Positions 4,137 through 62,774 of a stretch of 64,000 bases of DNA are shown here, one piece after another. The stretch is taken from assembly GCF_018613195.1 (NCBI RefSeq), contig NZ_JAGGQQ010000005.1, positions 339,593 through 403,592 of the forward strand, given 5' to 3'. How positions within the stretch are numbered: position 1 is the first letter of the stretch; the number at the start of each line of letters is the position of its first letter. The stretch comes from Bacillus sp. ISL-45 (lineage in GTDB: Bacteria; Bacillota; Bacilli; Bacillales; Cytobacillaceae). A program made the position numbers and the translations under genes. The notes beneath the pieces are model-generated. The model was given only the letters and a program-made list of their open reading frames with translations. It did not search any database and was not told the origin of the DNA.

Positions 4137-4170
4137 GCCCAATTGTGAAAATAATATAAATGCGGATGAC

Positions 4171-4374
4171 AACAAGGGGAGAGACTACTTTAGTAGCGCC
4201 GAAGGAGCAAGCAGACTTTGTGAATCTCTCAGGCAAAAGAACTCTTGTTTGACGCATCTCTGGAGAGCGCTTTTTTAGTGGGAGCCACCAAAGGGGAAAG
4301 CCTTTACAGGTAAACTTTCAGGTGAAAGGACAGAGACCTTCTCAGATTCAGAGGGGGTGCTCTGTCCTTTTTTG
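4171..4374 (+). ncRNA. Tandem glycine riboswitch (gcvT leader)
   Basis: Two consecutive glycine aptamers lie in the leader of the glycine cleavage operon. The first (about 4171-4250) has the hallmark GGGGAGAGAC start, the GCGCCGAAGGAGCAA core and the CTCTCAGGCAAAAGAAC end, closed by ACAAG/CTTGT. The second (about 4254-4330) repeats the pattern: CTCTGGAGAG, CACCAAAGGGGAAAGCC and CTTTCAGGTGAAAGGACAGAG. The known mechanism of the family in Bacillus is an ON switch: glycine binding favours read-through, so the catabolic gcv genes are expressed only when glycine is plentiful. The expression platform is the terminator listed separately. Confidence 0.95.
4328..4374 (+). terminator. Riboswitch-controlled terminator upstream of gcvT
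   Basis: GGACAGAG (4328-4335) pairs with CTCTGTCC (4360-4367), followed by TTTTTTG. The 5' arm is shared with the P1 region of the second aptamer, which is how ligand binding can prevent terminator formation. Confidence 0.85.
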
Positions 4375-10432: not shown

Positions 10433-10481
10433 ACACCATATATAGTGTTGTCGAAAATTTAAAATACACTATATATTGATT
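10433..10481 (+). promoter_or_regulatory. Tandem NrdR boxes overlapping the nrdJ promoter
   Basis: Two NrdR-type boxes: ACACCATATATAGTGT (10433-10448, nearly palindromic) and ACACTATATATTGATT (10466-10481). Their starts are 33 bp apart, about three helical turns, as is usual for NrdR pairs. A possible promoter, TTGTCG (10448-10453), 18 bp, TATATT (10472-10477), runs through both boxes, so NrdR bound with dATP would block it. NrdR is the known repressor of ribonucleotide reductase genes; the assignment here is by sequence match. Confidence 0.85.
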
Positions 10482-10592: not shown

Positions 10593-11411
10593 ATGTCTGT
10601 AACTATTGGACAAAAAATGAGCCTGGATGTAGAAAGCCTGAACAAGGATATTAAGCTGTTCCCGCAGGTTCACCCGATTACATCTGACATGAAACTTACA
10701 CACAAAGGCGTTTCCCGATTAGTCATGCTGGACCGCTATACTTTTAAAGACACTGAAAAAATTACCCTATCAAATGGTGATTTCGTCGTTCTCACAATCA
10801 AAGAGGATCCAAAGTTTCCTGCTCGTGGACTTGGATTCATACTAGATATTGATTGGGAGAACAAAACAGCCAAAGTGCTTGTAGACGAAGAATTCCGCGG
10901 GGTGCTTGATGATCCTGAAGAAGCTTCGACCGGGGTGATCAAACGTTCACTGGACGTTATTGAAAAGCCGCTGGAAGTATTTTACGAGCAAATCGCGAAA
11001 CGGAATGCCACAGGGCTTGCAGCCGTTGAAAAAACAGAAGAAAAGCGCCAGGAGTGGTTCGAGAAGTTCTACCAAGAGTTAGTCTCGATGAATTTCATCC
11101 CGGCAGGCCGTGTTCTTTACGGAGCAGGCGCGGAAACAGATGTAACCTACTTCAACTGCTATGTTATGCCATTCGTACAAGATTCACGCGAAGGAATTTC
11201 TGAGCACCGCAAACAGGTAATGGAAATCATGAGCCGCGGCGGCGGAGTAGGAACGAACGGTTCGACACTAAGACCGCGCAACACACTTGCCAAGGGCGTA
11301 AACGGAAAATCATCCGGTTCGGTCTCATGGCTTGATGACATTGCCAAGCTGACGCATTTAGTAGAGCAGGGCGGGTCAAGACGTGGTGCACAGATGATCA
11401 TGCTGGCGGAT
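10593..11411 (+). CDS. nrdJ: Class II (B12-dependent) ribonucleotide reductase NrdJ, exon 1
   Basis: NrdJ reduces ribonucleotides to deoxyribonucleotides using adenosylcobalamin and needs no oxygen or separate radical subunit. Exon 1 encodes residues 1-273, ending GSRRGAQMIMLAD. The start at 10593 follows AGAAGGAG (10576-10583); the ATG at 10521 in the same frame has no ribosome site. The segment DVTYFNCYVMPF holds the first redox cysteine. Exons 10593-11411, 12545-13165 and 13415-14533 join in phase to an 852-residue protein, the expected family length. Both breaks fall between codons and show group I intron splice-site signatures, so this is a split gene, not a pseudogene. Confidence 0.93.
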
Positions 11412-12544
11412 TAACTAAATGACATTCTAAGTTAAAATTGGTAAGATTAACATGAGAACAAACGTTCGTTATAAGGAGGGCGTTTCATGAATCTGACCAG
11501 AGAATTTCTTTATCAAAAGTATATTCACGACAAAATGAGTTTAAAAGAGATAGCTGAAGAAACAGGGCTGCCAATTACGACAATTAAATCAAAGCTTAGA
11601 AGATTTGGTATTAGAAAAAAGCCAATCAAACTAGGCAATGAGATATACGATAATCGTGATTGGCTCTATGAGGAATACATTGTTAAAAGAAAGGGATATA
11701 CTGTACTTGCTAATGAACTAGGGGTAAGTTATACAACAATTTTAGATCGAATTCTTTTCTTTGGATGGGAGCTAAGGGGCCATGATGAAATTGATAAAGG
11801 TGCTCCGAGGAGAGGAACGAAACATACCCCAGCCTCCATAGAGAAAATAAAGTCGACTAGGATAAAGAAACGTGTATACTTTGAATGCTTTCAGTGTGGA
11901 CAAACTACTGAAAGGGTACGCTCAGGATTATCTAGTTCAGGTAAAAGCTTTTGTACTTATACATGTTATAAGAATTACCTGAAAGAAAATAGAGTGGAAA
12001 CAATTGATATAACTGATTCTGCACTCTATAAGGAATGGCGTAAAAAAGTATATACTCGGGATAACTTTAGGTGCAAGATGCCTGGTTGTAACTCGAGTTC
12101 AAGAGATATTGCTGCTCACCATATTTATCCCAAAAAGCCTTTCCCTGAAAAACAATTTCTTTTAAACAATGGAATCACACTCTGTAGAAACTGTCATGAA
12201 AAAACTTATGGTAAAGAAAGTAACTTTATAGATGCATTAGTCCGCGTCGTTCAGAAAATGAACGATTAGAAAATCGGGTGAATTGCAGGGAACTCCTTAG
12301 AGGCAGGCAAGCCACAACGTGACTGGAAACGGTGAGCGTGAGGGCCTAAAAATTGCTTGCATTGGACAATCTGCAGCCAAGCGTCATTGGGCAAAGGTAA
12401 TGGCGAAGGTTCAACGACTAGAGAGTGAGTCCCAACAATAAACTCTCACAAGCGCCCGACCCCTAACAGACCATGCTGAGGGTGATGATATAGTCTAGTC
12501 CGGCTGCAAAGCAGCGAAATATTCCGAAAGGAACGGTAGGTACG
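11412..12544 (+). ncRNA. Group I intron 1 in nrdJ, with homing endonuclease gene
   Basis: Intron of 1133 nt. The upstream exon ends in T (11411) and the intron ends in G (12544), the group I rule. The exon end GCGGAT (11406-11411) pairs with an internal guide GTCCGC (12240-12245), including the splice-site U-G pair. Core elements lie downstream of the endonuclease gene: P-like AATTGCAGGGAA (12281-12292), Q-like AATCTGCAGCCAAG (12368-12381), R GTTCAACGACTAGA (12409-12422) and S GATATAGTC (12487-12495); P7 is GACTA (12416-12420) with TAGTC (12491-12495). The extra stem GAGAGTGAG/ACTCTCAC after R suggests subgroup IA, as in phage and nrd introns. Confidence 0.9.
11487..12269 (+). CDS. Intron-encoded HNH homing endonuclease
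   Basis: 260-residue protein lying in the P1 loop of intron 1, with its own ribosome site AAGGAGGG. Order of parts: two helix-turn-helix-like units (about residues 15-45, LKEIAEETGLPITTIKSKL; and about 70-95, LANELGVSYTTILDRI), a four-cysteine zinc motif (CFQCG ... CTYTC, about 132-160), and an HNH domain (about 190-245) with RDNFRCKMPGC, AAHHIYPK and LCRNCHEKTYG. It is expected to cut intronless nrdJ alleles so that repair copies the intron. The coding sequence is visibly richer in A+T than nrdJ, which fits a transferred element. The 3' end overlaps intron guide and P2 sequences. Confidence 0.9.
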   Translation: MNLTREFLYQKYIHDKMSLKEIAEETGLPITTIKSKLRRFGIRKKPIKLGNEIYDNRDWLYEEYIVKRKGYTVLANELGVSYTTILDRILFFGWELRGHDEIDKGAPRRGTKHTPASIEKIKSTRIKKRVYFECFQCGQTTERVRSGLSSSGKSFCTYTCYKNYLKENRVETIDITDSALYKEWRKKVYTRDNFRCKMPGCNSSSRDIAAHHIYPKKPFPEKQFLLNNGITLCRNCHEKTYGKESNFIDALVRVVQKMND

Positions 12545-13165
12545 TGGCATCCTGACATTGTAGAATTCATCATTTCCAAAATGCAAAACCCAAGAATCCT
12601 TCGCTTCCTGATTGAAAGCACCAACGATGACTCAATCAAGAAACTGGCGAAGGAAAAGTTGAAATTCACACCGCTGACTTTGCAGGAAGAAGCAATGTAC
12701 CAGGGAATCGTTAACTATAAGAGCATCCCAGGTTACGGCGGATTCAGCGCAGATATCATCAAAGCGGCTGAAGAAAAGCTTGCAACAGGCGGAACCTATA
12801 CCGTCCATAACTCAGAATTCCTTACCGGTGCAAATATTTCAGTCACTCTGACAAAGGATTTCATGGACGCAGTTGAAAATGATTCAGATTATGAACTTCG
12901 TTTCCCTGATGTTGAAAGCTATGATGCTGAGACAATGAAGGTTTACAACGAAGAATGGCATAAAATCGGTGACGTCCGCGAGTGGGAAGAGCTCGGATAC
13001 AAAGTGCGCACCTATAGAAAAATCAAAGCAAAAGAATTATGGAACTTGATTAATATCTGTGCGACATACTCAGCAGAACCAGGCATTTTCTTCATCGACA
13101 ATGCCAATGATATGACGAACGCACAGGCATATGGACAGAAGGTAGTAGCGACAAACCCGTGTGGT
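12545..13165 (+). CDS. nrdJ: NrdJ, exon 2
   Basis: Exon 2 starts with TGG CAT CCT GAC (WHPD) directly at the 3' splice site and encodes 207 residues, continuing MIMLAD from exon 1 as MIMLADWHPDIVEFI, the expected class II sequence. It includes the HNSEFLTGANISVTLT segment of the finger-loop barrel and ends ...KVVATNPCG, the first four residues of the catalytic NPCGE motif; its cysteine is the thiyl radical position. The frame would hit a stop a few codons into intron 2, so translation requires splicing. Confidence 0.92.
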
Positions 13166-13414
13166 AGAGCAGCTTAGTTTGCCTCACGTTAAAAATTGCG
13201 GAATGAAGCGGGAACCCTGCGATGGGAATCCGAACCGAAGGCCTTGGTTAAAAACCAGGTCAGGGGCAACGCATAGATGGTGAACCTGTGAGAGCAGAAT
13301 ATAATCCATCCACGAGGCCGCAACAATGCCACAAAGCATTGAAAAGATATGCTGAACTAACGGGAAACGAACCGTTAGAACTAAGGGATAAAAAGCCTTT
13401 AGGATAACAAAATG
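13166..13414 (+). ncRNA. Group I intron 2 in nrdJ (no open reading frame)
   Basis: A 249-nt intron separating NPCG from EQPLAPNSVCNL. The exon ends in T (13165) and the intron in G (13414). The P1 helix pairs exon GTGTGGT (13159-13165) with guide GCCTCAC (13181-13187) with one mismatch and a U-G pair at the splice site. P7 can form from GCATA (13271-13275) and TATGC (13348-13352), set in R-like GGGCAACGCATAGA and S-like AAGATATGCTG contexts. It starts AGAGCAGCTTAG. It is too small for an endonuclease gene, so if mobile it would depend on one in trans. Confidence 0.83.
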
Positions 13415-14533
13415 GAACAGCCTCTCGCACCAAATTCTGTCTGCAACCTCGCTGCTGTTAACCTTGCGGAAATGGCGGACAAGGATACAAAGACAGTTAA
13501 CTTTGAAAAATTGAAGCGTACTGTAGAAGTTGGCGTGCGTATGCAGGACAATGTCATCGATGCGACTCCTTACTTCCTTGAAGATAATAAAAGACAAGCT
13601 TTAGGTGAACGCCGTGTCGGTCTTGGTGTCATGGGACTTCATGACCTTCTGATCTACTGTGAAACAGAATATGGTTCAGAAGAAGGAAACCAGCTTGTTG
13701 ACAAAGTATTTGAAACAATTGCGACTTCGGCTTACCGTGCATCTGTTGAACTTGGAAAGGAAAAAGGAAGCTTCCCATTCCTTCAAGGCGGTACTGAAGA
13801 AGAAACTAACAGACTTCGCCAGGCATTCACGAACACTGGTTTCATGAAAAAAATGCCTGAAGATATTCGCGAGTCAATCCTTGAAAACGGAATTCGCAAC
13901 TCACACTTGCTGACTGTTGCTCCGACGGGATCAACTGGTACCATGGTTGGCGTGTCAACAGGACTTGAGCCTTACTTCAGCTTCTCCTACTTCCGAAGCG
14001 GCCGTCTTGGCAAGTTTATTGAAGTGAAAGCGGACATCGTTCAGGAATATCTTGATCGCAATCCGGATGCTGATCCAGAGAACCTGCCGAATTGGTTCGT
14101 CTCAGCGATGGAATTGGCGCCTGAAGCACACGCTGATGTTCAATGTGTCATCCAGCGCTGGATTGACAGCTCGATCAGCAAGACGGTCAACGCGCCGAAG
14201 GGCTACAGTGTAGAGCAGGTTGAAAAGGTATATGAGCGCTTGTATAAAGGCGGAGCGAAGGGCGGTACCGTTTATGTAGACGGCTCCCGAGATTCACAGG
14301 TACTGACGCTCAAAGCCGAAGAAAACACGATGGAAGAGGAAATCGACAAGAAAGAAAAGCAAAAGCAGCATGTGGTACTTGTCGACACGATTAATGAATT
14401 ACGTTCTACCAACGTAACGATTGGCTCTGAAGTCGGCAATACATGTCCTGTCTGCCGCAAAGGTGAAGTAAAAGAAATCGGCGGCTGCAACACATGCACA
14501 AACTGTAACGCACAGTTAAAGTGTGGACTATAA
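13415..14533 (+). CDS. nrdJ: NrdJ, exon 3
   Basis: Exon 3 encodes the last 372 residues, starting EQPLAPNSVCNLAAVNL, so the catalytic glutamate of NPCGE is its first residue. It contains GERRVGLGVMGLHDLL, the phosphate-binding LTVAPTGSTGTMVGVSTGLEP segment and a C-terminal cysteine cluster (CPVC ... CNTCTNC ... CGL) that forms a zinc ribbon plus the redox cysteines that re-reduce the active site through thioredoxin. The second redox cysteine of the barrel is in APNSVCNL. The internal ATG at 13412 arises only across the splice junction and is not a start. Confidence 0.92.
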   Translation, partial: EQPLAPNSVCNLAAVNLAEMADKDTKTVNFEKLKRTVEVGVRMQDNVIDATPYFLEDNKRQALGERRVGLGVMGLHDLLIYCETEYGSEEGNQLVDKVFETIATSAYRASVELGKEKGSFPFLQGGTEEETNRLRQAFTNTGFMKKMPEDIRESILENGIRNSHLLTVAPTGSTGTMVGVSTGLEPYFSFSYFRSGRLGKFIEVKADIVQEYLDRNPDADPENLPNWFVSAMELAPEAHADVQCVIQRWIDSSISKTVNAPKGYSVEQVEKVYERLYKGGAKGGTVYVDGSRDSQVLTLKAEENTMEEEIDKKEKQKQHVVLVDTINELRSTNVTIGSEVGNTCPVCRKGEVKEIGGCNTCTNCNAQLKCGL

Positions 14534-62591: not shown

Positions 62592-62625
62592 AAAAAAAAG
62601 CGGACAACGGAATGTTCCGTTGTCC
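62592..62625 (-). terminator. Inverted repeat with T-run on the minus strand
   Basis: GGACAACGGAA (62602-62612) and TTCCGTTGTCC (62615-62625) are perfect inverses. The eight A at 62592-62599 make a T-run on the minus strand, yet no minus-strand gene is visible upstream of it. The core GGACAA/TTGTCC is also the core of the tandem arrays. Confidence 0.5.
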
Positions 62626-62774
62626 TTCATCTAGGGAGTTTAGGGGTATGGATCTAGCTGTATTGTTACCTTTCCCGGAATTCCTGAAAGTTAAACATAC
62701 TTTGAAAAATTAATTTTAATTGGTATCATGTATTTATGTACCAGTTATTTTTCAGCAGAGGAGATATCGAATCG

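Follow-up and report, generated by a model that had tools for sequence, protein, structure and literature searches.

Two group I introns interrupt the class II ribonucleotide reductase gene nrdJ of Bacillus sp. ISL-45, one of them between the glycine and glutamate codons of NPCGE

The nrdJ gene of Bacillus sp. ISL-45, which encodes a ribonucleotide reductase (RNR), appears in the chromosome as three separate coding pieces, and the question raised by this locus is whether the gene is broken or is intact and restored by RNA splicing. The locus lies in a stretch of 64,000 nucleotides (nt) from contig NZ_JAGGQQ010000005.1 (positions 339,593 to 403,592 of the forward strand; assembly GCF_018613195.1), which we refer to as the window. 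We consider it very probable that two group I introns, each removing itself with its own guide, interrupt an intact nrdJ. The coordinates of all features are compiled in Table 1.

The three pieces, taken here as exons, are all in phase 0 and join to 852 codons, with intervening gaps of 1133 and 249 nt. The last letter is T in each upstream exon and G in each intron, as the group I rule demands. In the unspliced message, a TAA directly follows exon 1 and a stop lies three codons past NPCG. The NCBIfam entry NF005991 (vitamin B12-dependent ribonucleotide reductase) is the top match for each of the pieces, every one of which, taken singly, scores below the whole-protein cut-off; the product is a predicted member of the class II (NrdJ) family and is expected to use the B12 cofactor. 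A GGAG sits eight bases upstream of the start, and the two palindromic boxes found further upstream resemble what we take to be the NrdR-type box.

To compare this arrangement with other genes, we used 80 named relatives, the best 80 among 334 ranked by exon 3 similarity and not a random sample. In 44 of them, nrdJ is directly contiguous in the DNA at exactly both predicted junctions, so the predicted splice products equal empty-site alleles. Between the window and the relatives L004 to L009, exon 3 is 98-99% identical in amino acids (aa), against 86-94% in nucleotides; judged from these sequences, the exons are under protein-level constraint.

Intron 1 is inserted at LAD/WHP (the slash marks the junction; site B). 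It matches the whole of the Rfam group I model RF00028 with 81.4 bits (E 4e-19; gathering score 50), and by this match it contains the conserved group I catalytic core. The exon sequence GCGGAU (11406-11411) pairs with GUCCGC in the guide to form P1, with a U-G at the splice site, the intron has its terminal G, and the P10 strand GATGC pairs with GCATC (12547-12551) of exon 2. The intron also carries an open reading frame (ORF) with matches to PF01844 and to helix-turn-helix (HTH) families, the N-terminal part being covered by phrog_8446. The guide, with both its P1 and P10 strands, falls within the 3' end of this ORF; in ORF-less relatives, the same motifs are found just behind the 5' splice site of the site-B intron, which places the HNH ORF in the P1 loop. 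Of the 9 relatives listed at site B, 8 have both motifs; the remaining one, L040, was rejected as a site-B intron, its junction reading showing an intron at site A2 (defined below). Compared with L006 (M. selenatarsenatis SF-1), the HNH ORF has 30 synonymous and 15 nonsynonymous changed codons of 261; it is intact, and the codon changes suggest constraint on a predicted endonuclease.

Intron 2 is inserted exactly between the G and E codons of NPCGE, residues among which we take the cysteine to be the radical cysteine and the glutamate the catalytic one (site C). The introns at this site came from two sources, the named relatives and 193 searched genomes of the family; 43 of these genomes, our own included, gave a DNA match, which in some cases is weak and incomplete. 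After the removal of identical copies, the set comprised 35 unique sequences, of which we aligned 20 that have no long insert. The structure from P1 to P9.1 was drawn by hand from the window sequence, where P1 joins CGUGUGGU to GCCUCACG by seven pairs and one U-U. Over the 20 rows, 99.1% of the cells are paired and 28 of the 62 pairs are changed on both sides, in P3, P5, P6a, P7.1, P7.2, P8, P9 and P9.1. The covariation score is 0.352 vs 0.122 for shuffled alignments, with none of 500 shuffles as high, and it falls to 0.033-0.095 when the structure is slid. The pairing between exon and intron in P1 changes on both sides in two of the 20 (L062 and L105), and a P1 with U-G is possible in all 35 unique introns. 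P10 is complete in 32 of the 35 (the exceptions are L022, L104 and L112) and is swapped from GTTT/GAAC to GCTT/GAGC in L030, L076 and L109. In the window copy, all modelled pairs form except one in P6a and the U-U omitted from P1. Intron 2 is thus a group I intron despite the missing Rfam match. Two candidates were discarded: GCCTC/GAGGC as P3, its 5' strand being the P1 guide and the true P3 being TTGCGG/CCGCAA, and a sub-threshold snoRNA-like Rfam match on the other strand, taken as chance.

These results bear out most of the preliminary description of the locus, which had proposed three in-phase pieces of 852 residues, gaps of 1133 and 249 nt, the T and G ends, P1 guides with a U-G at the splice site, the two P7 pairings, the group I nature of both insertions and the placement of the second one within NPCGE. 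All of these are found at the expected positions, the group I assignment now resting on anatomy and comparison and, for intron 2, on covariation. The comparison with uninterrupted genes of relatives that it had suggested also came out as anticipated.

Table 1. Positions of the nrdJ exons, introns and associated elements in the window. Paired strands are separated by a slash.
Feature	Position	Strand	Basis and remarks
Palindromic box pair upstream of nrdJ	10433-10448 and 10466-10481	+	pattern search with ≤2 mismatches: 2 matches vs 0.11 expected
nrdJ exon 1	10593-11411	+	273 codons; frame open already from ATG 10521
Group I intron 1, site B	11412-12544	+	1133 nt; Rfam RF00028 at 12188-12516; empty site in relatives
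HNH endonuclease ORF in intron 1 P1 loop	11487-12269	+	260 aa; PF01844; PHROG HNH families
Intron 1 guide	12231-12245	+	P10 strand GATGC 12231-12235; P1 strand GTCCGC 12240-12245
Intron 1 P7	12416-12420/12491-12495	+	GACTA/TAGTC; sequence; RF00028 match
nrdJ exon 2	12545-13165	+	207 codons; C-terminal end ...TNPCG
Group I intron 2, site C	13166-13414	+	249 nt, no ORF; covariation; no Rfam match
Intron 2 P1	13158-13165 (exon)/13181-13188 (guide)	+	covariation, motif positions
Intron 2 P10	13177-13180/13415-13418 (exon 3)	+	GTTT; motif positions
Intron 2 P3	13196-13201/13318-13323	+	TTGCGG/CCGCAA; structure and covariation
Intron 2 P4	13209-13211/13230-13232	+	structure; invariant
Intron 2 P5	13215-13217/13224-13226	+	structure and covariation
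Intron 2 P6	13235-13236/13265-13266	+	structure; invariant
Intron 2 P6a	13240-13246/13255-13261	+	structure and covariation
Intron 2 P7	13271-13275/13348-13352	+	GCATA/TATGC; structure; invariant
Intron 2 P7.1	13276-13280/13306-13310	+	structure and covariation
Intron 2 P7.2	13286-13289/13294-13297	+	structure and covariation
Intron 2 P8	13324-13329/13336-13341	+	structure and covariation; loop carries ORF in some relatives
Intron 2 P9	13357-13363/13372-13378	+	structure and covariation
Intron 2 P9.1	13381-13387/13396-13402	+	structure and covariation
Intron 2 terminal G	13414	+	sequence
nrdJ exon 3	13415-14533	+	372 codons plus stop

How much the cell depends on this gene was addressed by searching the genome, a draft of 27 contigs that is 99.84% complete, for other RNR genes. 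PF02867, the RNR barrel, matches the nrdJ pieces only, PF13597 (class III) has no match, and PF00268 finds a single distant R2-like gene with 67 bits. Thirteen relatives hold a second, lower-scoring R2-like gene at 75-79 bits, and by profile range the gene of our strain looks like this one. It is read as a 216-aa ORF followed by an overlapping 83-aa ORF (L186, 7268-8166; G000:C25), the likely counterparts in relatives having 295-318 aa. A further PF02867 gene is present in the other 20 of the 21 genus genomes searched (in two pieces in G070), adjoined by a PF00268 gene scoring 242-257 bits (184 and 60 bits for the two pieces into which it falls in G070); PF13597 is present in one of the 21. 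An 11-kb region of G072 with this PF02867/PF00268 pair has just three short DNA matches, of 70-102 bases, in our genome. The strain therefore seems to rely on nrdJ alone, and with no other RNR catalytic gene found, its cells would have to splice out both introns in order to grow; nrdJ with its two introns is probably an intact and essential gene.

In group I splicing, the 5' exon is held in P1, a guanosine bound at P7 attacks the 5' splice site, P10 holds the 3' exon and the exons are ligated. In nrdJ, each 5' exon would accordingly be held with its terminal U opposite a G, the bound guanosine would attack the site held in P1, and ligation of the P10-held exon would restore the frame. Intron 1 is a potentially mobile form, whose HNH endonuclease would cut intron-less nrdJ, the intron then being copied in. 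Intron 2 represents an element that has an ORF in the P8 loop in close relatives but lacks one here. Both lie in the part of the gene for the catalytic core, the reason presumably being that no other DNA is as constant a target.

Introns come and go in the nrdJ of the relatives. At least one is present in 36 of the 80 and at least two in 12, so the earlier view of two introns in a chromosomal class II nrdJ as exceptional was overstated; the kind is already known, and ours is a well-supported case of it rather than a novel type of element. We named the sites A1 (GGSR/R), A2 (GGSRRG/A), B (LAD/W) and C (NPCG/E), and we presume that GGSRRG is comparable to loop 2 of the class I enzymes. There are 17 introns at A, 15 at B and 17 at C. 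Sites A and B are occupied together in 7 of the 80 (A1 and B in L004, L037, L051, L056, L069 and L076; A2 and B in L070), which leaves an exon of just 24 or 30 nt between two group I introns, and one relative, L076 (Neobacillus niacini MER531), has three introns. A fifth site is occupied in L174, where an Rfam group I intron (2255-2683) lies behind VAPTG in exon 3; we presume that APTG is comparable to the substrate phosphate loop.

The nearest kin already differ: the window has B and C, L004 has A and B, L005 has C, L006 has B and L008 has none. We placed the introns on an nrdJ tree built quickly from the trimmed exons (80 rows including the window; L012 was omitted for its incomplete exon 1), on which the count of changes does not separate gain from loss. 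Site C requires 15 changes for 18 carriers (shuffled mean 16.5; 37 of 200 shuffles as low) and site A 14 changes for 17 carriers (shuffled mean 15.7; 25 of 200 as low), and the presence of introns at these two sites hardly follows the nrdJ tree. The intron 1 core is 91.8% identical in L044, vs 72-77% for the exons, and the 5' part (160 nt) of the site-C intron is 91-92% identical in L015 and L022, vs 77-81% for the exons. Nine intron ORFs scanned for Pfam families include LAGLIDADG at A1 (L004) and A2 (L070), DUF559 at A2 (L020) and HNH at site B of the window, L044 and L064. Together, the tree counts, the excess of intron over exon identity and the variety of ORFs point to introns that are rapidly gained and lost and that spread horizontally.

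Several observations weigh against our reading of nrdJ as an intact gene with two group I introns. The Rfam search suggested in the preliminary description recovered intron 1, as noted, and returned no group I match for intron 2 even at E≤1. The alignment of intron 2 omits 15 of the 35 unique introns (13 long and two divergent short ones, L030 and L076), and its structure, being drawn from the window row, is favoured over the slid versions. P4 (3 pairs), P6 (2) and P7 (5) are paired but invariant, so it is their position, and no covariation, that supports these helices. The status of nrdJ as sole RNR gene depends on the 27-contig draft, in which an assembly gap is possible. Regarding mobility, the full-length HNH protein has no close viral relative among the viral loci searched, some phylogenetic signal is left at site B (its 16 carriers need 12 changes, against a shuffled mean of 14.8, and 3 of 200 shuffles are as low), and a test for co-conversion beside site C gave a weak result (p 0.067 for 30 nt, 0.034 for 60 and 0.19 for 120). 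For splicing in vivo, the activity of the endonuclease and homing, we argue by inference from these sequences.

Among the alternatives, the one that fares best accepts both introns and supposes that nrdJ splicing is a regulatory gate on the supply of deoxynucleoside triphosphates and not a neutral load. It would suit an organism in which nrdJ is apparently the only RNR, and a passage of PMC3653736 suggests that RNR introns could benefit phages through regulated splicing. However, the near-random presence at A and C argues for parasite turnover over a kept function, and we regard a regulatory role as unlikely. That the introns exist but at least one of them fails to splice in this strain, with only truncated or split NrdJ being made, is very improbable: splicing is known here by inference and the HNH ORF overlaps the guide of intron 1, so that its translation could interfere with splicing, but the modelled intron 2 pairs form in the window copy with the two exceptions given, NPCG and E would fall on separate chains, and no other RNR catalytic gene was found in the genome. 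Slightly more remote still is that intron 1 is a group I intron while the 249-nt segment is another structured insertion or a decay product and nrdJ a pseudogene, as its lack of an Rfam match, a gene open in pieces only and the second PF02867 gene of 20 other genus genomes (in which nrdJ might in principle be dispensable) might suggest; we set it aside on the strong covariation of intron 2, its exon-guide P1 included, and on the protein-level conservation of the exons, and the P10 swaps, the insertion exactly at empty sites and the failure to find a second RNR gene in this genome speak against it too.

Beyond the two group I introns themselves, a broader picture can be drawn tentatively, and we hold it with considerable doubt. 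In the bacteria of this taxonomic class, the catalytic core of nrdJ may be an intron nest, with four junctions and a fifth seen once (APTG/), repeatedly colonised by group I introns with LAGLIDADG, DUF559 (Vsr-like), HNH and unclassified endonucleases, whose turnover is fast enough to leave presence almost independent of the gene tree; in a species seemingly without the class I RNR that its genus has, all DNA-precursor synthesis would then pass through two ribozymes, making splicing obligate and possibly regulatory.

The site-C introns of L005 (5009-5941), L009, L010, L011 and L022 have an ORF of 311-316 aa inserted at the P8 loop, which the window copy lacks. None of the three of these ORFs tested (L005, L010 and L022) matches a Pfam family, one that was tested has no PDB relative by sequence at E≤1, and an AlphaFold model has a mean pLDDT (its per-residue confidence score) of 61.7, with the nuclease part poor. 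It is possibly an unclassified homing endonuclease; by eye, we take its motif YKPDF...VEIK (VEII in L022) to be of the PD-(D/E)XK kind.

A covariance model (R1) built from 19 site-C introns detects introns of this type in 22 of 398 genomes from the host's taxonomic class, our own included, and in two phages, an Enterocloster phage (128 bits) and a Listeria phage (124 bits). Judged by flanking frames, 14 of the 15 class-wide matches above 100 bits, again including our own, follow the NPCG of nrdJ-type genes in several families, while L172 and at least some of the weaker matches lie in non-nrdJ genes. The earlier proposal that this site ensures a target in nearly any nrdJ is plausible, given that several families of the class have introns of this type behind NPCG. 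By coordinates, a gathering-level Rfam group I match covers the core in one of 20 sources of this type (L176). In viral contigs, the exact site-C guide/core pattern has no match and the site-C ORF has two weak ones; 51 phage DNA records resemble the intron 2 core, five of them covering ≥80%, and neither of the two inspected is annotated as nrdJ. Divergent NPCG/E insertions of 176 and 201 nt occur in L030 (5828-6003) and L076 (5803-6003). They have little beyond the guide region in common with intron 2 and are matched neither by Rfam nor by model R1; by eye, they seem to have a P3, a P7 and a P8 like those of a group I intron of very small size.

Extensions P7.1/P7.2 and P9.1 mark the IA1 and IA2 group I introns, and intron 2, compared by features only, is like this subgroup in having them; it is missed by RF00028 and found by our own covariance model. 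It has been thought unlikely that a single alignment covers group I diversity, according to a passage of PMC6125680. The intron 1 ORF resembles HNH homing endonucleases with an N-terminal HTH in its PF01844, HTH and PHROG HNH matches; 39 viral loci match the protein, mostly in its C-terminal third with 28-47% identity, and, unlike it, the phage and viral matches listed cover its C-terminal half or less, at ≤47%. A passage of PMC3653736 names RNR as the most often interrupted of the phage nucleotide-metabolism genes that have group I introns and also places the two introns of Twort nrdE near functionally important residues; the introns of Bacillus nrdE and nrdF are reviewed in PMC3984707. Our introns are like those of class I genes (Twort nrdE, SPbeta nrdE/nrdF, Bacillus nrdE/nrdF and Bastillevirinae R1), which, according to PMC3653736, PMC3984707 and PMC11878797, are group I ribozymes, sometimes several per gene and some with HNH. 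Unlike those, many of which are in phages, ours lie in a chromosomal class II nrdJ, and one of them splits the presumed radical Cys-Gly codons from the catalytic Glu codon. According to a passage of PMC2795772, RNRdb has more than 100 curated group I introns in RNR entries, so earlier sightings in nrdJ are possible; among the matches listed from the open-licence PubMed Central literature, we found no paper about group I introns in the nrdJ of Bacillaceae, and so none describing such a nest in their chromosomal class II gene.

Other elements were observed in the same genome. A group I intron of 95.4 bits lies in an apparent flagellin gene, named from its translation (L001, G000:C27:410301-410666). 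On the minus strand of L003 (G000:C11), a transfer-messenger RNA (tmRNA) match of 162 bits at 1501-2098 lies near a smpB-like ORF, also named from its translation; ARAGORN finds no tmRNA at this position, and a weak group I match (34.7 bits, under the cut-off) overlaps its 3' end. In the window, Rfam matches the Listeria small RNA sbrA at 62595-62663 (minus strand) and a glycine riboswitch at 4166-4254 (plus strand).

The general Rfam model misses introns of the type of intron 2, and genes that carry them are therefore likely to be annotated as broken or split. Relatives with none, one, two or three introns in nrdJ make gain, loss and homing traceable, and the nrdJ of Bacillus sp. ISL-45 provides a natural and testable case of an apparently essential chromosomal enzyme that would depend on two self-splicing events, one of them at the active-site codons.

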